A DNA stretch of 64,000 nucleotides, from assembly GCF_026107375.2 (NCBI RefSeq), contig NZ_JAPCIA010000001.1:2728001-2792000 (forward strand), written 5' to 3'. This stretch comes from Sphingomonas sp. BT-65 (GTDB taxonomy: Bacteria; Pseudomonadota; Alphaproteobacteria; Sphingomonadales; Sphingomonadaceae). Shown piece by piece: positions 3,741-38,788 of this stretch; the first letter of the stretch is position 1, and each line of letters begins with the position of its first letter. The position numbers and the translations under genes were made by a program. A model generated the notes under the pieces. The model was given only the letters and a program-made list of their open reading frames with translations. It was not told where the DNA came from and searched no databases.

Positions 3741-4517
3741 GTGGAGAATTGCGTAGTGCGGGCAAGGTTGCGGGCGGCGCTGGCGAGTGGACTTGGGCTC
3801 GCGCTCGCCGCCGCCGCGCCCGCCGCCGCGCAGCAGGTTCGCGCCACCGGGACCGACGAGGTGCTGCTGCGCAACGGGCAATGGGCGTGGCTCGACGAAG
3901 CAACCTACCAGAAGGCCGGCGGGCCCGGCGCGATCTCGATCCTGATCAGCCTGCCGGGCCAGATCGCCTATGTCTATCGCGACGGGGTGCTGATCGCCGC
4001 GTCCACCGTCTCGACCGGCAAGCGCGGCAAGTCGACCCCGCCGGGCGAGTTCACCATCCTGCAGAAGCGCGTGTTCCACCGCTCCAATCTCTACAGCAAC
4101 GCGCCGATGCCGTTCATGCAGCGGCTGACCTGGACGGGGATCGCGCTGCATGCCGGACATCTGCCGGGCTATCCCGCCTCGCACGGCTGCATCCGCTTCC
4201 CGCGCGAGTTCGCGAAGCGGCTGTTCGAGATCACCGAGCTGGGCGGGCAGGTGTCGGTCGTGGACTATGAGATCGTCGATCCGCGCGTGCGGCGCGGCGT
4301 GCCGCGGCTGGTGCCCGAGCAGATCGCCAAGGCGGCCGAGCCGCCCTTCCTGCGCGCCGACCTCGCCGCATTCCGCACCGTCGGGTTCGACGTCGTCACC
4401 GCGAGCAACGACGTGATCATCCCCGGGGTCGAGCTGCGCGACGTGGTGAGCGACGGCGGCGTCCCCTACGCCCCGCTGAAGCCGGTGCTGCAGAAGTCGC
4501 CACAGCGACGGCGTTAG
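3741..4517 (+). CDS. L,D-transpeptidase (ErfK/YbiS/YkuD family), periplasmic
   Basis: 258 residues from a GTG start with a signal peptide ending near AAPAAAQQ. The YkuD domain covers roughly residues 60-180 and ends in the catalytic signature HAGHLPGYPASHGCIRFP, whose Cys forms the acyl-enzyme with peptidoglycan stem peptides. Enzymes of this type make 3-3 cross-links or attach proteins to meso-diaminopimelate. The Arg/Pro-rich C-terminal extension has no visible domain. Its end overlaps the acyltransferase gene on the other strand by 4 bp. GTG at 3756 is an alternative start. Confidence 0.88.
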   Translation: MENCVVRARLRAALASGLGLALAAAAPAAAQQVRATGTDEVLLRNGQWAWLDEATYQKAGGPGAISILISLPGQIAYVYRDGVLIAASTVSTGKRGKSTPPGEFTILQKRVFHRSNLYSNAPMPFMQRLTWTGIALHAGHLPGYPASHGCIRFPREFAKRLFEITELGGQVSVVDYEIVDPRVRRGVPRLVPEQIAKAAEPPFLRADLAAFRTVGFDVVTASNDVIIPGVELRDVVSDGGVPYAPLKPVLQKSPQRRR

Positions 4518-27788: not shown

Positions 27789-27865
<77 letters not shown>

Positions 27866-31817: not shown

Positions 31818-32831
31818 TTAGCGCCACTCCACGCGGTGCGCCCCATCCGGCTGATCCATAAACACCGCACGCCGGCCGATGAACCGCTCAATCACGTCGC
31901 GTGCAGTCAGGCTGTGCTGGCTCGGCTTGACGGTGGTGAACGCCCCGCCCCCCGCGAGAGCGAAGGGAAGCAGCAGCTGGTCCTGCAGATACGGCCCGGC
32001 AAAGGCGGCGGATTCAAGATAGCCGGCCATCCGTCCTGCCGCCTTGCGCGCTACCGCTTCGGCAGGCACGCCGAGCTGGCCGAAACCGCTGACGATCTCG
32101 GTGACGTCATCGAACACCGCTTCGATCAGCACGATGTTGCCCGGCCCCTGATCCTCGGGGAGCTGACGCACGACGAAGCTCTCCTCGGGCCAGTCGAGCG
32201 CCTTGCGCGCCGCTAAGATCTCGCGGTCGGCGATGTCGAAGGGCAGCCCGGCGACGAACGCCGTCACTGAGCATTCGCGCAGCGTGCCGCGCTCGACGCA
32301 CTCGATCGGGATCAACGGCGCCGGAGTGATATCCACCTCGATCCGTCCGCCGCCACGTGGATAGAAGCCGTGCCGTACCAGCCGCGCCTCGACCTTCGGC
32401 CCCATGCGGTTGAGGATCGGCAGGAAGGTCTTCGCGATGAACTCGAACGGCGGGGCGAGCATGTTGTGTGTGCCGCCCTCCAGCACAAGGCGCGAGGGCA
32501 AGTCGGCAAGCACCAGCGGCATGAGCAGCGTCTGGAGCACGAGGCCGGTGCTGCCCGCCGTACCCACGGCGAAGCGATATTCGCCGGGCACGACCTTGCC
32601 GGGCGTGAAGGCGATTTCCGAAGCCCCCACCGCCAGCCCCTCGCACGTCGCGTTGCCGAGCGCGCACGCTGCCTCGACCGCGGTGACATGCTGGCGCATC
32701 AACCCCGGCTTCTCGCGCTTGCCGCGCGCGTTGATGATGCGGAAGGGCTGGCCGGTGATCAGCGACAGCGCGCACGCATTGCGCACCACCTGCCCGCCGC
32801 CTTCGCCTTCCGATCCATCGATGATGATCAT
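31818..32831 (-). CDS. rtcA: RNA 3'-terminal phosphate cyclase
   Basis: Converts RNA 3'-phosphate ends to 2',3'-cyclic phosphates through a covalent enzyme-AMP. 337 residues: N-terminal IDGSEGEGGGQVVRNACALS, THNMLAPPFEFIAKTFLPIL, FYPRGGGRIEV, and the C-terminal PSQHSLTARDVIERF with the nucleophilic His near residue 307. It is the last gene of the rsr-RNA-rtcB-NTase-rtcA operon. Its ATG overlaps the nucleotidyltransferase stop by 4 bp. Confidence 0.95.
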   Translation of the reverse strand: MIIIDGSEGEGGGQVVRNACALSLITGQPFRIINARGKREKPGLMRQHVTAVEAACALGNATCEGLAVGASEIAFTPGKVVPGEYRFAVGTAGSTGLVLQTLLMPLVLADLPSRLVLEGGTHNMLAPPFEFIAKTFLPILNRMGPKVEARLVRHGFYPRGGGRIEVDITPAPLIPIECVERGTLRECSVTAFVAGLPFDIADREILAARKALDWPEESFVVRQLPEDQGPGNIVLIEAVFDDVTEIVSGFGQLGVPAEAVARKAAGRMAGYLESAAFAGPYLQDQLLLPFALAGGGAFTTVKPSQHSLTARDVIERFIGRRAVFMDQPDGAHRVEWR

Positions 32832-33625
32832 TGGTTCACCAGTTGAATAAAGAGTTCGTCGGCGCGTTCCGCCCATTTCGCCGAGGGCGCACGGATCGCC
32901 AGTTCGGCCGCGCGGCCCAACTCGTCGCCGATCAGCGCGTCGAGCAGCGGCACGCGCGTGCCGTTGCTGCGCTCGTTGGTTCGCGCCTTGGCCTCGACCA
33001 ATGCGGAGATCGCAGCCGCGGCGCCCGCCGGCAGATCCGCCAGCGCGACCAGCGCCTGCAGGTTCATCGGCGGGCGTTGGTGCGGATGCAGGCGCAGCAC
33101 GCGGATCGCGAGCGCAGGGCGCAGCGCGTAGAAATATTTCTTCACCGGCACCTCGCCGTCGCCGTCGAGCCAGCGGTCCGCCGCGGTCCGGCCCAGCCGC
33201 GCATAGTGATGCGCGAGCGCACGGGCATCGAGCATCGCATCCGCCAGCGCTGCGAGCTTCGCCACGAACGGGTCGTCGGGGCGATAGCGGATCGGGGATT
33301 CGATCCACTCGCTGATGATCGCGTTCGACTTGAGCAGCAGGCCCAGCGCCTTGCGCACGTCCCAGCCGTTGAGGTCGATCTCGTCCTCGATCGGCTGCTC
33401 GATCACGTCGCGGCCCGGCTGGAGCGACAGATACCAGTCGCGCGGCCGGACATAGAGGAAGCGGATGTCATAGTCGCTGTCGGGCGAGGGAAAGCCCCAG
33501 GCGCGCGAGCCGGACTCGACCGTGAGCAGCACGCGCACGCCATCCGCCGCCTCGATCGCGGCCAGCCGGGTCTCGATCTCGCGCCGGACCTGGGGCGCGA
33601 TTGGGTCTTGCGTAACGGCAGTCAT
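32828..33625 (-). CDS. YcgL-type nucleotidyltransferase within the RNA-repair operon
   Basis: 265 residues of the DNA-polymerase-beta nucleotidyltransferase fold: the signature GSRAWGFPSPDSDYDIRFLYV holds the Gly-Ser and two metal-binding Asp residues, with a further acid likely in EDEIDLNGWDV. A helical domain follows. This resembles the predicted nucleotidyltransferases of COG3541 (YcgL). The substrate is unknown. Its location, overlapping rtcA and 37 bp after rtcB, suggests that it modifies or extends RNA ends in the same response. Confidence 0.82.
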   Translation of the reverse strand: MTAVTQDPIAPQVRREIETRLAAIEAADGVRVLLTVESGSRAWGFPSPDSDYDIRFLYVRPRDWYLSLQPGRDVIEQPIEDEIDLNGWDVRKALGLLLKSNAIISEWIESPIRYRPDDPFVAKLAALADAMLDARALAHHYARLGRTAADRWLDGDGEVPVKKYFYALRPALAIRVLRLHPHQRPPMNLQALVALADLPAGAAAAISALVEAKARTNERSNGTRVPLLDALIGDELGRAAELAIRAPSAKWAERADELFIQLVNQ

Positions 33626-33662: not shown

Positions 33663-34895
33663 TCAGCCCTTGACGCACACCACCTGCTTGAGCGTGTGGA
33701 CGATCTCCACCAGATCGGCCTGGGCGGCCATCACGGCTTCGATCGGCTTGTAGGCCCGGGGCGTCTCGTCGATCACCCCTTCGTCCTTGCGGCACTCGAC
33801 CCCCGCGGTGTCGCGGATATGCTCGTCGAGCGTCACCAGCTTCTTCGCCTCGGTGCGCGACATGACGCGCCCCGCGCCGTGCGAGCAGCTGTCGAAGCTC
33901 TCTGCATTGCCGAGGCCACGGACGATGAACGACTTGGCGCCCATCGACCCGGGAATGATGCCCATCACCCCCTTTGCCGCGCGAACCGCACCCTTCCGCG
34001 TGACCAGCACATTCTCACCGAAATGGTTCTCGCGCTGGACATAGTTGTGGTGGCAGTTCACCGCCTCGGCCTCCGCCTCGAACGGCTTGGCGATCTGGCC
34101 CCGGAGCGCGGTGACGACGTTGGCCATCATCATGCGCCGGTTCAGCGCGGCGAAGTCCTGCGCCCAGCCCACCGCCTCGACATAGTCGTCGAAATGGTCG
34201 GTCCCTTCCGGGAAGTAAGCGAGGTCCGCGTCGGGCAGGTTGATGTGCCATTTGCGCATGTCCTGCTTCGCCAGCTCGATGAAGAAGCTGCCGATCGCAT
34301 TACCCACGCCGCGCGAGCCCGAATGGAGCATCACCCACACCCGCGCTTCCTCGTCGAGGCAGAGCTCGATGAAGTGGTTGCCGGTACCGAGCGTGCCGAG
34401 ATGGACCAAATTGTTGGTCTTCTCGAGCTTCGGATATTTGTCGGTGATGCGCTTGAAGCGCGCCGCGAGCGTTGCCCACGCCTCGACGATCGGCGCCGGG
34501 GGCATGCCCCACGCGCCCTTGTCGCCGCGCGTGCCGCGCCCGGTCGAACGGCCGTGCGGAACCGCGCGCTCGATCGCGCTGCGGATGCCCTCGAGATTGT
34601 CGGGCAAGTCGTGCGCCATCAGCGAGGTGCGCGCCGCCATCATGCCGCAGCCGATGTCGACGCCGACCGCCGCCGGGATCACCGCGCCCTTGGTCGGGAT
34701 CACCGAGCCCACGGTCGCGCCGATGCCGACATGCACGTCGGGCATTGCCGCGACATGCTTGAAGATGAACGGCATCTTCGCCGCGCGTGCGAGCTGGTCG
34801 CGCGCCTTGTCGTCCACGGGCACGCCGCGGGTCCAGCTCTTGATCGGCACGCCGCCCTCGACATGCTGGTATTCGAACGTCGTCGTTTGGGTCAT
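33663..34895 (-). CDS. rtcB: RNA-splicing ligase RtcB (3'-phosphate / 5'-OH RNA ligase)
   Basis: Joins RNA 3'-phosphate or cyclic-phosphate ends to 5'-OH ends using GTP and Mn2+. 410 residues with metal ligands in AAVGVDIGCGMM (Asp80, Cys83), NCHHNYVQRENHFGENV, the Gly-rich HSGSRGVGN, and the guanylylated His in SCSHGAGRVMSRTEA. A strong AGGAGG site lies just before the ATG. The third Y RNA-like element ends 26 bp upstream, so mRNA and RNA are apparently one precursor. Confidence 0.96.
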   Translation of the reverse strand: MTQTTTFEYQHVEGGVPIKSWTRGVPVDDKARDQLARAAKMPFIFKHVAAMPDVHVGIGATVGSVIPTKGAVIPAAVGVDIGCGMMAARTSLMAHDLPDNLEGIRSAIERAVPHGRSTGRGTRGDKGAWGMPPAPIVEAWATLAARFKRITDKYPKLEKTNNLVHLGTLGTGNHFIELCLDEEARVWVMLHSGSRGVGNAIGSFFIELAKQDMRKWHINLPDADLAYFPEGTDHFDDYVEAVGWAQDFAALNRRMMMANVVTALRGQIAKPFEAEAEAVNCHHNYVQRENHFGENVLVTRKGAVRAAKGVMGIIPGSMGAKSFIVRGLGNAESFDSCSHGAGRVMSRTEAKKLVTLDEHIRDTAGVECRKDEGVIDETPRAYKPIEAVMAAQADLVEIVHTLKQVVCVKG

Positions 34896-34921
34896 GGCGA
34901 CCTCCTGCTTGCTATCATGGT

Positions 34922-35048
34922 GCCGGCGACGAGTTGTGGCGAGACGTTTTCCTGAGCTACTCGGCTTGCGCCGGGACGGACTTGAACCGCCGACCTCCCG
35001 CCTTCCGGCGGGTGCTCTGACCCTGTAGTCCCGCCGGCATTCGCCAGC
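34922..35048 (-). ncRNA. Y RNA-like RNA 3 (YrlA-type, with tRNA-like module)
   Basis: Terminal stem: 35041-35048 pairs with 34922-34929 (RNA strands GCUGGCGA / UCGCCGGC). GACTAC is at 35025-35030 (complement). An 8-base CCCGCCGG/AAGGCGGG hairpin follows, then a T-arm at 34975-34991 (GGCGGTTCAAGTCCGTC). An acceptor-like stem closes on a GCAA tetraloop (34960-34975) and continues to TAGCTCAG, a D-arm-like start. T-arm before D-arm is the reverse of a tRNA and fits a bacterial Y RNA, in which the tRNA-like part hangs from the Ro-binding stem. The ends are estimated from pairing. Confidence 0.8.
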
Positions 35049-35059
35049 TTGTTGGTGGT

Positions 35060-35193
35060 CACGGCGACGAAATTGACCGGACGGTTACGCGCTCTGCCAC
35101 TGAGCTACGGGCCCCCAATGGTGGACCCGGCGGGATTCGAACCCGCGACCTCGGGATTACAATTCCATGTAGTCCGATCGGCATTCGCCGTGC
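35060..35193 (-). ncRNA. Y RNA-like RNA 2 (YrlA-type, strongest tRNA mimic)
   Basis: Terminal stem: 35185-35192 pairs with 35060-35067 (RNA CACGGCGA / UCGCCGUG, 8 bp). GACTAC is at 35169-35174. The T-arm (35130-35146, GCGGGTTCGAATCCCGC) is followed by CGGGTCC, then ACCATT, then GGGCCCG. These two 7-mers form an acceptor stem with one G:U and a loop containing ACCA. TAGCTCAGTGGCAGAGC, a textbook tRNA D-arm, follows. An AATTG/CAATT helix joins the two modules. In order it is a permuted tRNA. A tRNA finder could mis-call it as a tRNA or pseudogene. Confidence 0.85.
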
Positions 35194-35202
35194 TGAAAAT
35201 TG

Positions 35203-35361
35203 GGCCGTGGCGACGAGGATCGATGAGACATCGGCCTTAAGCTACGTGTCGTCGGCGGGACTCGAACCCGCATCTCCCCGGTGCCTTGCAGCGGTCCGGG
35301 GCGCTTTACTCGTTCGGGCCTCCCTGGTGACGATGTAGTCCCACCAGCATTCGCCACGGCC
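35203..35361 (-). ncRNA. Y RNA-like RNA 1 (first in the transcript)
   Basis: Starts 4 bp after the rsr stop. Terminal stem: 35351-35361 pairs perfectly over 11 bp with 35203-35213 (RNA GGCCGUGGCGA / UCGCCACGGCC). GACTAC is at 35335-35340. The T-arm GCGGGTTCGAGTCCCGC is at 35255-35271, then CGACGACACGTAGCTTAAG and a CGATG-TCT-CATCG hairpin, a divergent D-arm region. The 5' strand keeps GGCGAAUG as in the other two RNAs. About 159 nt, the longest of the three. Confidence 0.8.
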
Positions 35362-35365
35362 TGTT

Positions 35366-36916
35366 TCAAACCTCCACTTGCTTGACGATGCTCACCCAGT
35401 CGCGCGTCTCGCCACGGGCGAAGCGTGCGACGGTGTCGAACACCGCGTCGGAGAAGCCCCCGACATTGAGAGTGTCAGCCCGACCGGTGGCCTGGGTGGT
35501 CCCATAGGGCTGGATGTCGATGCACACGAGCTTCGCGCCCGGGTTGCGCCGCTTGATCCTGTCCCACTGGCGCATCGTCTCGGTCGCGCCGCGGCGGTTT
35601 GCGTCCACCCACGACTCATTGTCCGACACGATCACGACCAGGTCGACCGCCGCGTTCTCCGAAACGAGCTGCGCCAGCGGTGCCGACACGTTCGTTCCGC
35701 CACCCCCGACCGCCACCAGCTTCGCCGCGTTGACGGCGAGGCGGGCACGCGGATCGAGGTTGAGGCGCACGACACGCTGCTCGAACGGCAGTACGCGCGC
35801 CTGCGCATTGATCCGCAGCATCGCCGAGGCGACCAAAGCCGCGATGTCGATGCAGCGCACCTTGGTCGTGGCGCCCTTGCGGACCCCGGTGACCGGCGAG
35901 CTCATCGACCCCGACACGTCGGGGCAGACCACGACCTTGCCGCGGATCGCCGGAACGTTGCGAAGCGACGCCTCCAGCGCATCCTCGAGCGCGGCCTGGA
36001 CCTTGAGCGGCACGCCCTCGCCGACCGAGTTCAGCGCCACCAGCAGCTGGTAGGGGAGAACCCGCGCCTTCGCGAGCGCCTCCGGATCCGCGAGCCGAGC
36101 GGCGACCGCCTCGGTCACCCCCTTCACCCCGAACGCGCCGTTGCGCGCCAGCGTGTTGAGGTTGATCCGCAGCGCCTGCCAGCCCATCCGCCCGGCCAAT
36201 TCGCCCCACTGCATATCGCGCAGGGGAAAGGCGGTCAGCCATTCGAACGGCACCGGCGGCAGCGCGATCCCACGGGGATTGCGCTTCCAGGTCTCGAACG
36301 CGGCGATCTCGACCGGCAGCGTGGCGACATCATGCGGCTTGCCGATCAGCCAACCATAGAAAGCGCGCCGCTGCGCATCCGCGGGCTTGGGGTGCACCAT
36401 CCGCACGATGTCGGCGAGCGAGGGCGCATTGCCCGTCGCGGCGGCCATCAGATCGCGCATCGACGCCTGCTCCAGCCAGCGCTGGACCAGCCGCTTCGGA
36501 CGCGAGCCGAGCGAGGTGCGCCCGATCTGACCCGAGCGCAGGATCTGCACGAAGTTGCGCAGCATCCGCCCATTGTCGATCACGCGGTCGAAGACGCGGA
36601 CCGACAAATCGGGATCAGCGACCGTCAGCCACGCGGCGATCAGCGCCGGCATGTCCTTCATCGCGCCCGACTTGCGGGCATAGACCGCGACCTGCGCCGC
36701 ATAGAAGGGATCGACCACGGCGAGCGCGTCGAGCGTCTGCTTGAGCTGCGCCTCGGCGGTCGCGTAATAGGCGTCGCCGAGCGTGCCGGTCGCGGCGAGC
36801 TGCGCGAGCAGCGCCTCCGGACCATAGGCATAGGCGGGCGCGCCCTCCCGGTTGACGGCGTCCGCCGCCGGCAGGAGCTTCGCGATCGCAGTGGCGAAGA
36901 GGCCCTTGTTGGCCAT
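35366..36916 (-). CDS. rsr: Ro60-like TROVE domain protein (Rsr)
   Basis: 516 residues from ATG 36916 (AAGGAC site upstream). Residues 10-320 form the all-helical TROVE ring that binds Y RNA and misfolded RNA. The C-terminal von Willebrand A domain has MIDAS residues Asp333-x-Ser335-x-Ser337 (VVCPDVSGSMSS) and VVIVSDNESWVDANRRG. In other bacteria Rsr binds Y RNA and can tether exoribonucleases such as PNPase. It is the first gene after the sigma-54 promoter, and three Y RNA-like genes follow its stop codon. Confidence 0.95.
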   Translation of the reverse strand: MANKGLFATAIAKLLPAADAVNREGAPAYAYGPEALLAQLAATGTLGDAYYATAEAQLKQTLDALAVVDPFYAAQVAVYARKSGAMKDMPALIAAWLTVADPDLSVRVFDRVIDNGRMLRNFVQILRSGQIGRTSLGSRPKRLVQRWLEQASMRDLMAAATGNAPSLADIVRMVHPKPADAQRRAFYGWLIGKPHDVATLPVEIAAFETWKRNPRGIALPPVPFEWLTAFPLRDMQWGELAGRMGWQALRINLNTLARNGAFGVKGVTEAVAARLADPEALAKARVLPYQLLVALNSVGEGVPLKVQAALEDALEASLRNVPAIRGKVVVCPDVSGSMSSPVTGVRKGATTKVRCIDIAALVASAMLRINAQARVLPFEQRVVRLNLDPRARLAVNAAKLVAVGGGGTNVSAPLAQLVSENAAVDLVVIVSDNESWVDANRRGATETMRQWDRIKRRNPGAKLVCIDIQPYGTTQATGRADTLNVGGFSDAVFDTVARFARGETRDWVSIVKQVEV

Positions 36917-37018
36917 GACGCGTCCTTCTCGATTCCTTCGCAGGTTCCGGGGCGGCCGGCCCATTCCGGCCGCCCCTGCCTCTGCGCTGCCGGCGGATAG
37001 TGCCGACACGATGGATAT

Positions 37019-37034
37019 TGCAGGGGGCGTGCCA
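37019..37034 (-). promoter_or_regulatory. Sigma-54 (-24/-12) promoter of the rsr-rtc operon
   Basis: On the minus strand TGGCACGCCCCCTGCA matches the sigma-54 consensus TGGCACG-N4-TTGCA at every consensus base except one T (C instead). The GG and GC centres are 10 bases apart, as required. The start of transcription would be near 37008, leaving a leader of about 90 nt before rsr. The palindrome ATCTCCGGAGAT at 37045-37056 lies upstream and could be part of an activator site. Confidence 0.85.
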
Positions 37035-37189
37035 GTTCTTCTCCGATCTCCGGAGATGTTCGTTCAACTATCTGATAATGTGTGGTTTCACACGGAACTT
37101 CCGGCGCTGGCCGCGGATCAGCCCGCGATCCGGACGGCGGAAAGAACTATCGATTGCGATACGGATTTATCCAATCGTATAAGCCTCGC

Positions 37190-38788
37190 ATGAAACCGCT
37201 CGTCGTCATCGGCTTCCTCGGTTCGACGTTGGACGCGAGCAAGTTCGGCCCCTCGCGCTGGAGCAAATGGCGCCCGTCGGTGGCGCTGACGATGCATCAG
37301 GATCTGCGCGTCGACCGCTTCGTGCTGCTGCACAGCAACAAGCATAGCCGCCTCGCGGAGTATGTCGCGGAGGATATCGCCGCGGTCTCGCCTGAGACGC
37401 GGGTCGAGCCGCAGCTGATCGAGTTCGCCGATCCGTGGGACTTCGAGGAAGTCTACGGCAAGCTGCTCGACTTCACGCGCGGCTATGCCTTCGATCCGGA
37501 GGCCGAGGATTATCTGATCCACATCACCACTGGCACCCACGTCGCGCAGATCTGCCTCTTCCTGCTCACCGAGGCGCGCTATCTGCCCGGCCGTCTGCTG
37601 CAGACCCAGCCCGCCGCGAAGCTCGAGAGCGGCGCCGCGCCCGGCCGCTGGACCACGATCGACCTCGACCTGTCGCGCTACGACAGCATCGCCACGCGGT
37701 TCGCCGCGGCGAGTGCCGAGAGCACGTCCTTCCTCAAATCGGGAATCGAGACGCGCAACGCCGCCTTCAACCATATGATCGACGAGATCGAGCGCGTGGC
37801 GTTGCGCTCAAGGGCTCCCGTCTTGCTCATGGGGCCTACGGGCGCGGGCAAGAGCCGGCTCGCGCGGCGCATCTACGAACTCAAGCACCTCAAGCATCAG
37901 ATTGCCGGGACCTTCGTCGAAGTGAATTGCGCGACACTCAAGGGGGATGGCGCGATGTCTGCGCTGTTCGGGCATCGCAAGGGCGCGTTCACCGGCGCGG
38001 TCGCCGACCGACCCGGGCTGCTCCGCGCCGCCGACAAAGGCATGTTGTTCCTCGACGAGATCGGCGAGCTCGGGCTCGACGAGCAGGCGATGATCTTGCG
38101 CGCAATCGAGGACAAACGCTTCCTTCCGGTCGGCGCCGACAAGGAATCCGGCTCCGAGTTCCAGCTCATCGCCGGCACCAATCGTGACCTTGGCGAGGCC
38201 GTGGCGGCCGGCACGTTTCGCGACGACCTCTATGCGCGGCTCAACCTGTGGACCTTCCAGTTGCCCAGCCTCGCCGAGCGCCGCGAGGACATCGAGCCCA
38301 ATCTCGATTACGAACTGGACCGCTTCGCCGAGCGTGAGGGCGACCGCGCCAGCTTCAACAAGGAGGCGCGGCAGCGCTATCTGGCCTTCGCGACGGGTCC
38401 GGACGCGCACTGGCCGGGCAATTTCCGCGATCTCGCGGCGAGCATCACGCGGATGGCGACCCTCAGCTCCAAGGGGCGCATCGACGTGGAGTGTACCGAT
38501 GCCGAGATCTTGCGCCTGAAGCGCCTCTGGTCCGGTCAGCGTGATGCCGGCGCGGACGTGCTGGCCGAGGTCCTCACGCCGGAAGCGCTCGGCGAGCTCG
38601 ATCCCTTCGATCGCGTGCAGCTCGCCGAGACGGTTCGTGTCTGTCGGCGAAGCCGCTCGCTATCCGAAGCCGGGCGCGCGCTGTTCGCGGCCTCGCGCGC
38701 GCGACGCAGCACGGCGAATGATGCCGATCGACTGCGTAAATATCTCGCGCGGTTCAGACTGGATTGGTCCACTGTGCAATCCCGTTGA
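37190..38788 (+). CDS. rtcR: Sigma-54-dependent activator RtcR (CARF-AAA+-HTH)
   Basis: 532 residues from ATG 37190. Residues 1-180 form the CARF-type sensor typical of RtcR, with ITTGTHVAQICLFLLTEA at 112-129, thought to sense a nucleotide or RNA-end ligand. The AAA+ domain has Walker A GPTGAGKS (215-222), GAFTGA (265-270) for sigma-54 contact, Walker B MLFLDEIGEL and the Arg finger region. The C-terminal helical part should bind an upstream enhancer. It is divergent from rsr, and the 273-bp gap contains the sigma-54 promoter. Confidence 0.95.
   Translation: MKPLVVIGFLGSTLDASKFGPSRWSKWRPSVALTMHQDLRVDRFVLLHSNKHSRLAEYVAEDIAAVSPETRVEPQLIEFADPWDFEEVYGKLLDFTRGYAFDPEAEDYLIHITTGTHVAQICLFLLTEARYLPGRLLQTQPAAKLESGAAPGRWTTIDLDLSRYDSIATRFAAASAESTSFLKSGIETRNAAFNHMIDEIERVALRSRAPVLLMGPTGAGKSRLARRIYELKHLKHQIAGTFVEVNCATLKGDGAMSALFGHRKGAFTGAVADRPGLLRAADKGMLFLDEIGELGLDEQAMILRAIEDKRFLPVGADKESGSEFQLIAGTNRDLGEAVAAGTFRDDLYARLNLWTFQLPSLAERREDIEPNLDYELDRFAEREGDRASFNKEARQRYLAFATGPDAHWPGNFRDLAASITRMATLSSKGRIDVECTDAEILRLKRLWSGQRDAGADVLAEVLTPEALGELDPFDRVQLAETVRVCRRSRSLSEAGRALFAASRARRSTANDADRLRKYLARFRLDWSTVQSR

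Follow-up and report, generated by a model that had tools for sequence, protein, structure and literature searches.

That the Y RNA YrlA is a circularly permuted tRNA mimic (PMC11472068, PMC8394870) and that the Salmonella rsr-yrlBA-rtcBA operon carries two Y RNAs is already known from the literature passages at hand. The arms named for YrlA in the passages of one of these papers are the D, T, and acceptor arms only (PMC8394870). In Salmonella, as far as the passages report, yrlB and yrlA lie in tandem between rsr and rtcB, and the operon is driven by RtcR together with sigma-54 (PMC7790460, PMC9879122). RtcR binds 5' tRNA halves that end in a cyclic phosphate (PMC7790460), and both Rsr and YrlA bind PNPase (PMC9879122). 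Hughes and colleagues suggested that the YrlA head may compete for a tRNA-cutting nuclease (PMC7790460). As far as these literature passages tell, the role of Y RNA for Rsr has been worked out mainly in Deinococcus, where the Y RNA of RYPER (Rsr, Y RNA, and PNPase) tethers Rsr to the nuclease (PMC4726728), a system with which the locus described below is compared from sequence alone.

A 64,000-nucleotide stretch of the genome of Sphingomonas sp. BT-65 (the window, in whose numbering its features are given) contains an operon of this kind. The minus strand carries rsr (35366..36916), encoding a Ro60-like protein with TROVE and vWA domains (Pfam vWA_Ro60 and TROVE), rtcB (33663..34895; Pfam RtcB, E 5.5e-128), the gene of a RlaP nucleotidyltransferase (32828..33625; Pfam PF10127, E 1.8e-76), and rtcA (Pfam RTC, E 8.4e-59; TIGR03399), which was tested over 31818..32744, its real start being somewhat upstream. 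Rsr matches Deinococcus Rsr (PDB 2nvo) over residues 21-504 (E 2.9e-17), and its match to the NCBIfam Rsr model is far under the cut-off (83 vs 900 bits). The gene of the sigma-54 activator, rtcR (37187..38788, plus strand), is an open reading frame divergent from rsr with a likely start, MKPLVV, at 37187; the stretch tested (37193-38788) scored 820 bits with NF038308 (cut-off 650). Rsr is sporadic: of 298 genomes sampled in the family, 16 have it, including this one, and it is absent from all five same-genus genomes listed. The rsr-rtcB spacer of 470 nt holds, on the minus strand, three tandem Y RNA-like units arranged head to tail, U1, U2, and U3, with 4 nt from the rsr stop to U1, 7 nt from U1 to U2, 5 nt from U2 to U3, and 23 nt from U3 to rtcB. 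The array sits in an rsr/rtcB/RlaP/rtcA operon with a divergent rtcR.

A first-pass annotation of this DNA had placed three units in the 470-nt spacer, and they are indeed present on its minus strand, with matches to the Rfam YrlA model and to the model R1 (see below) above chance. The outer stems that it listed as differing from unit to unit while keeping their pairing (GGCCGUGGCGA/UCGCCACGGCC, CACGGCGA/UCGCCGUG, and GCUGGCGA/UCGCCGGC) were all found, as were the conserved CGAAUGC and GACUAC strands and the T-arm ascribed to each of U1, U2, and U3. U1 starts 4 nt past the rsr stop, as it had stated, and the 26 bp that it gave between U3 and the rtcB ATG amount to 23 or 26 nt, according to where the edge of U3 is set. 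Homology scores and stem covariation in relatives agree with its reading that the genes are Y RNA-like and that selection acts on a basal stem of Ro type, and the pairings, which it had proposed to follow in related genomes, are kept there, the stems covarying across the alignments of relatives. What it overlooked is that U1, U2, and U3 are not copies of one thing, the YrlA layout being present in U2 only.

When 601 nt were searched with the YrlA model RF02553, U2 scored 67.0 bits (E 3.5e-15), U3 32.3 bits (E 3.7e-5), and U1 25.4 bits (E 0.0037). The first-pass annotation had recommended such a search; U2, U3, and U1 turned out to be the three best YrlA matches genome-wide among the ten matches listed, and none of them reaches the gathering score of 69 bits. 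At gathering level, an Rfam scan of the window returned one tRNA and no Y RNA. The YrlA layout (T-arm, acceptor hairpin, and complete D-arm, without an anticodon arm) is found in U2 and not in U1 and U3, in which the D-stem halves flank the T-arm on either side; on these permutations, RF02553 scores under half its cut-off. Weak YrlA matches at E <= 0.001 were obtained in 6 of 14 control genomes, none of the 14 being above the cut-off, and in 26 of the 298 genomes of the family survey, 7 being above it. Since the same search matches 6 of the 14 control genomes, the YrlA score of U1 proves nothing alone. The covariance model R1 was made from 26 type C units, the type of U3, and did not include U1 and U2. 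In the 786 kb searched, it nevertheless recognised U2 with 55.1 bits (E 9.6e-13) and U1 with 50.0 bits (E 2.8e-11). Matches of R1 outside the spacers scored at most 27.7 bits and were all located on tRNA genes or leader tRNAs. U1 adjoins rsr at 4 nt, as bacterial Y RNA genes adjoin the gene of Rsr/Ro60, and a Ro-type basal stem with conserved strands is seen in the RF02553 alignments and in the stem covariation. The only tRNA called by ARAGORN in the window is a tRNA-Arg at 27789, with none in the spacer, and the best match of the tRNA model RF00005 in the array, 25.4 bits, is under its cut-off of 29. At the sequence level, the spacer encodes three bacterial Y RNA-like units in tandem that share a basal stem of Ro type, and their predicted heads arrange one tRNA-like domain in three different circular orders.

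The loci of relatives used for comparison were the best 80 of 391 confirmed loci (L numbers below), obtained from a scan of named genomes. R1, searched in three parts, gave 320 matches in the window plus these 80 loci: 298 in 76 complete rsr-rtcB spacers, 7 in L108 and L109, whose records stop before rtcB so that their units are outside the 298, and the other 15 on tRNA genes or leader tRNAs. Among the 76 complete spacers, 7 contain two units, 16 three, 29 four, and 24 five; in several loci, stretches of about 91-101 nt stay unmatched by the model and probably hold short units. In the rsr-rtcB loci examined (the window and the best 80 of 391), Y RNA arrays are normal. The statement of the first-pass annotation that such loci usually have one or two Y RNAs does not hold for these spacers, which have two to five units and most commonly four, and three tandem copies, which it had singled out, are unremarkable, with three units in 16 of 76 complete spacers, four in 29, and five in 24. 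By heuristic rules for unit types, strictly applied, the 298 units comprised 100 of type B, 35 of type A, and 35 of type C, besides 81 that have only a T-arm, 29 that lack it, and 18 in an undecided class. In 54 complete spacers (the window and L054-L107, mostly Sphingomonadales), type A was found in 35, type C in 35, and type B in 51; all three occurred together, by the strict rules, in only 24, the set of types differing from locus to locus. In the remaining 22 spacers, mostly from betaproteobacteria, strict types A and C were absent and type B was present in 21; in L127, L131, and L132 among these, the last unit was assigned to type C by eye (R1 79.7-86.5 bits). In 15 related loci with 65 units, Rfam at its cut-off found six, all of type B. 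The type C unit of L131 is labelled a tRNA by Rfam, and those of L062, L063, L078, L086, and L107 are labelled so by ARAGORN. Rfam at cut-off therefore misses most such genes in the tested loci, and ARAGORN and Rfam take some of them for tRNAs.

U2 (35057..35195, minus strand, 139 nt) is a type B unit with the classical layout. It shares with YrlA (RF02553; Salmonella YrlA, PDB 6CU1), as far as the published passages describe the latter, the position beside rsr/rtcB, the basal stem motifs, and a circular permutation of tRNA made up of T-arm, acceptor-like hairpin, and D-arm. The Y stem of type B enters between the D-arm and the T-arm, which is the position of the anticodon arm in tRNA. In U2, the complete D-arm is at 35091..35105 and the T-arm, as called in unit typing, at 35130..35146; the permuted acceptor between them (35108..35129) consists of 7 bp, one of them a G3:U70-type pair, together with A73 and a UUGG joining loop, the CCA lying within it (35119-35122, A73 plus CCA). 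The order of T-arm, 7-bp acceptor with CCA, loop, and then 5' acceptor strand is also that of the permuted tmRNA RF04321. U2 differs in scoring below the cut-off of that model (31.3 bits, E 1.4e-4, cut-off 47). In alphaproteobacteria, two-piece tmRNA is cut in the short loop that links CCA to the 5' acceptor strand, and G3:U70 is the alanine identity mark of tRNA. CCA was found at the exact place in 14 of the 100 type B units, following A73 in 12 of the 14, and it is not a general feature of Y RNA that U2 displays with its ACCA. A G3:U70 pair is present in 10 of the 14 CCA-bearing units vs 3 of 57 seven-bp acceptors without CCA; the CCA-bearing type B units are related by descent, their counts are not independent, and the association is therefore a lead rather than a test. 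It is a long shot that the array would be a kit of tRNA permutation isomers with divided labour, in which a CCA-bearing type B unit such as U2 would be cut after CCA and charged with alanine, the Rsr particle would carry an aminoacylated Y RNA, and type C would be the blank with its ends sealed.

Another type B unit, in L101 (5926-6100), has a 7-bp acceptor with ACCA and a joining loop of 39 nt from CCA to the 5' acceptor strand. The tRNA of the BT-65 genome that best matches U2 is of the tRNA-Met(CAU) type. The match, a stretch of 33 nt with 5 mismatches, does not support the idea that U2 arose recently from a single tRNA gene of BT-65.

U3 (34919..35051, minus strand, 133 nt), a type C unit, is predicted from its RF02553 score and from the family alignments A2 and A6 to carry a four-arm tRNA-like domain opened in the D-loop. 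The order of its elements is the second half of the D-stem, an anticodon-arm-like hairpin, the T-arm, an acceptor hairpin, and the first half of the D-stem. In U3, these are GAGC (35014..35017), which pairs with GCUC (34954-34957), a hairpin with the 4-nt loop GGAA (34997..35012), the T-arm (34975..34991), and CGGC-GCAA-GCCG with a GNRA tetraloop (34962..34973). A2 consisted of 25 type C units of a pattern search plus L104, which was shifted from type A to type C by eye. Of the 35 strict type C units, A6 contained 30 (L062, L070, L076, L102, and L105 being omitted); to these were added, by eye and on their R1 scores of 79.7-86.5 bits, the units of L127, L131, and L132, placed outside type C by the strict rules. 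In the 33 sequences of A6, 95.9% of the cells of the structure are paired and 26 of 36 pairs show double changes; none of 500 shuffles was as high on any of five measures, a count which is not a probability, as the sequences are related. Pairing dropped to 37.6-56.3% in controls with slid partners. The anticodon-arm hairpin shows double changes in 6 of 6 pairs (94.4% of cells paired), the T-arm is paired in 94.5% of cells, and the acceptor helix is the weakest of the type C helices (85.2%). The D-stem is 100% paired in the 33 sequences, with an A-U to C-G change in two of them (L131 and L132). Its covariation rests on these two related units, because the D-stem is invariant in a narrower set of 26 type C sequences, in which the measure of further pair types was reached by 121 of 500 shuffles. 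RNAalifold found the same D-stem closure unprompted; the acceptor hairpin is absent from its prediction, which lengthens the T-stem by two pairs instead. Among the 35 type C units, the loop at the anticodon position has 4 nt in 26, a GNRA acceptor loop is present in 30, and GG adjoins the D-stem in 34. With short loops at both places, the two working ends are usually sealed; type C would be a tRNA body which usually has neither an acceptor end nor an anticodon loop.

U1 (35203..35361, minus strand, 159 nt) is a type A unit with a basal stem and a four-arm tRNA-like domain that is also opened in the D-loop, as judged from its RF02553 and R1 scores, alignment A1, and permutation tests of a probable pseudoknot. 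The 3' half of its D-stem, AAGC (35303..35306), pairs with GCUU (35239-35242), and between these lie the anticodon-arm-like hairpin (35276..35301) and the T-arm GCGGG-UUCGAGU-CCCGC (35255..35271). A1 consisted of 29 of the 40 type A units of a pattern search, 11 of a GUAGCUC subtype being omitted. In this alignment, 94.4% of cells are paired and 16 of 39 pairs show double changes, values reached by none of 500 shuffles (again no probability, given the relatedness of the sequences). RNAalifold was also run on A1 and was counted as support for the type A layout. The D-stem is 100% paired in the 29 sequences, with an A-U to G-C double change in two, and an extra helix beyond it has C-G to U-A changes. 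The anticodon-arm hairpin varies in size, with double changes in 5 of 6 pairs and only 80.5% of its cells paired.

In the place of the acceptor hairpin of type C, type A has about 10 nt that pair with the strand after ACUACA; this pairing crosses the D-stem and would therefore form a pseudoknot. In U1, the acceptor-position strand GACGA (35249..35253) is the partner of UCGUC (35329..35333), the 5' strand of this probable pseudoknot, in agreement with type A covariation. For 30 unique pairs of strands, the summed score, taken as the best pairing in any register, was 243; the 2,000 permutations averaged 192, peaked at 222, and never reached it; at least 4 bp were formed in 25 of the 30. In the main type A subtype, the score was 167 vs 134 (none of 2,000 permutations), and in the minor subtype, the observed score was reached by 32 of 2,000. 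Exceptions with at most 3 bp are 5 of the 40 type A sequences (L056, L057, L076, L087, and L089), and in 6 of the 40 (L060, L066, L070, L072, L085, and L092), the best pairing is in another register. The excess over other segments of these RNAs was modest, with a mean of 8.15 vs 6.24 (sd 1.67) and 11% of the segments as high. It is likely that the acceptor position of type A pairs back to the 5' strand as a pseudoknot. U1 and U3 thus differ from YrlA in being opened in the D-loop and in keeping an anticodon-arm hairpin, and U1 adds the probable pseudoknot.

One alternative is that U1 and U3 are decayed tRNA genes that lie in the spacer by chance. Four of six pieces of the array (the T-arms of U1, U2, and U3 and the D-arm of U2) exceeded all of 50 shuffled copies in their likeness to tRNAs of this genome, which the acceptor-to-D pieces of U1 and U3 did not, and the tRNA calls made by ARAGORN and Rfam on some type C units of relatives point in the same direction. 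However, ARAGORN finds no tRNA in the spacer of the window, and the arms are in permuted order within a Ro-type stem, an arrangement which is conserved with compensatory changes. The covariation of types A and C already disfavours such an origin, which is regarded as extremely improbable.

A further question is whether the units are maintained as different types. Over 24 loci, identity within a type was 79% (A), 73% (B), and 83% (C), and identity between types in one locus was 60-65%. In a tree of the units from these loci, all 24 type A and all 24 type C units group, with a support of 0.97 for the type C split and of only 0.09 for the type A node, and type B forms no group. One explanation would be that a single Y RNA was duplicated into redundant units retained for dosage, with head differences arising by drift. 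Copy number does range from two to five, some loci are without one of the types or have units with a T-arm only or no T-arm, and R1 recognises all units as relatives. Against this stand the identity within a type across loci, which is higher than that between types in one locus, and the many pairs of the non-classical heads that change on both sides together, so that dosage is considered rather unlikely. The unit types appear to be separately maintained, and the fact that many related bacteria keep the same kinds suggests that differently wired heads may do different jobs.

A sigma-54-like promoter, TGGCACGCCCCCTGC (37020..37034, minus strand), starts 118 nt upstream of the rsr ATG and has one mismatch to the sigma-54 consensus. 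The pattern is not enriched in the window (60 found vs 64.7 expected), similar sites occur upstream of rsr in many relatives, and only position and recurrence favour this candidate. Between it and rsr is a leader hairpin, GGGGCGGCCGG-AAUGGG-CCGGCCGCCCC (36949..36976, minus strand), of 11 bp. The hairpin motif was matched in 54 of 81 sequences; in alignment A7, comprising 30 of these 54, double changes are found in 5 of the 11 pairs.

Of 54 loci scanned with ARAGORN, 18 have a tRNA-like gene in the operon leader, after the conserved hairpin and before the rsr ATG; the program finds no such gene in the window. Fourteen are Pro-UGG, two Trp-CCA, one Phe-AAA (L079), and one undetermined (L065). 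Copies are located at 2262-2340 in L060, at 3743-3820 in L098, at about 3905-3980 in L057 and L062, and at about 3903-3986 in L061, L063, L064, L068, L070, L071, L072, L074, L076, L084, L105, and L107. At a stretch of the D-arm where ordinary tRNA-Pro has UGGUA, the leader Pro copies have UGCGC in 9 of 14 and UGG in none, and the genome taken as SYK-6 has a second, ordinary tRNA-Pro(UGG). In L096 (about 3850-3998), a leader tRNA-like sequence with an apparent insertion was seen by eye, on which ARAGORN makes no call. The leader tRNA-like gene is possibly a bait or sensor for tRNA damage. ARAGORN also places a tRNA-Pro(UGG) in the rsr-rtcB spacer of L056 (6138-6215), 3' of the last Y unit. Arrays of tRNA genes lie upstream of rsr in L120 (1225-3325, 17 genes), L130 (130-561, 5), L131 (293-1501, 8), and L132 (509-1499, 10), which are Aquabacterium, Scleromatobacter, and two metagenome-assembled genomes.

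We consider it probable that the array comprises three Y RNA-like units with three wirings of a tRNA head on a Ro-type stem, which would act as Rsr-bound tRNA mimics in a damage-induced operon. RtcR would be activated by broken tRNAs, namely 5' halves with a cyclic phosphate, and sigma-54 RNA polymerase would then make one RNA of rsr, the Y array, rtcB, RlaP, and rtcA, from which the Y RNAs are presumably excised. The tight packing of the array (U1 4 nt from the rsr stop, units 7 and 5 nt apart, and rtcB 23 nt on) would also fit a role mainly in cis, in which the units would be tRNA-shaped elements for processing or stability that set off the rsr portion of the mRNA from the rtcB portion. A single cutting site would be enough for this, which would make a Ro-type stem in each unit and several head types needless, and such a role is judged improbable. 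As Rsr-bound mimics, U1, U2, and U3 would each bind Rsr via the basal stem. Because this stem enters at different points, the tRNA body would be presented to Rsr from the anticodon side in type B and from the D-loop side in types A and C. The heads may engage tRNA-binding partners, of which PNPase is the known one for YrlA, or block tRNA-binding surfaces; tethering of PNPase as in RYPER would be in line with the YrlA literature. A sealed type C head could neither be charged nor cut in the anticodon loop, and it would suit competition for a tRNA-cutting nuclease. We infer that the units function as Rsr-bound, stress-induced tRNA mimics attached from different sides.

The Salmonella operon, as far as the passages describe it, has two units in yrlB and yrlA, whereas the Sphingomonas spacer has three, with three tRNA-like heads. 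No report of a D-loop-opened or pseudoknotted Y RNA was found among titles and the first parts of abstracts, and the central Y RNA papers might hold one; what is provisionally new is that two non-YrlA layouts, types A and C, are kept side by side with the classical one. Three wirings of a similar tRNA-like body would share one docking stem, within a type of RNA-repair operon that broken tRNAs induce. Such a set allows experiments on which side of the tRNA shape counts, on a role of the heads as decoys, tethers, or gates, and on the charging of any of them.
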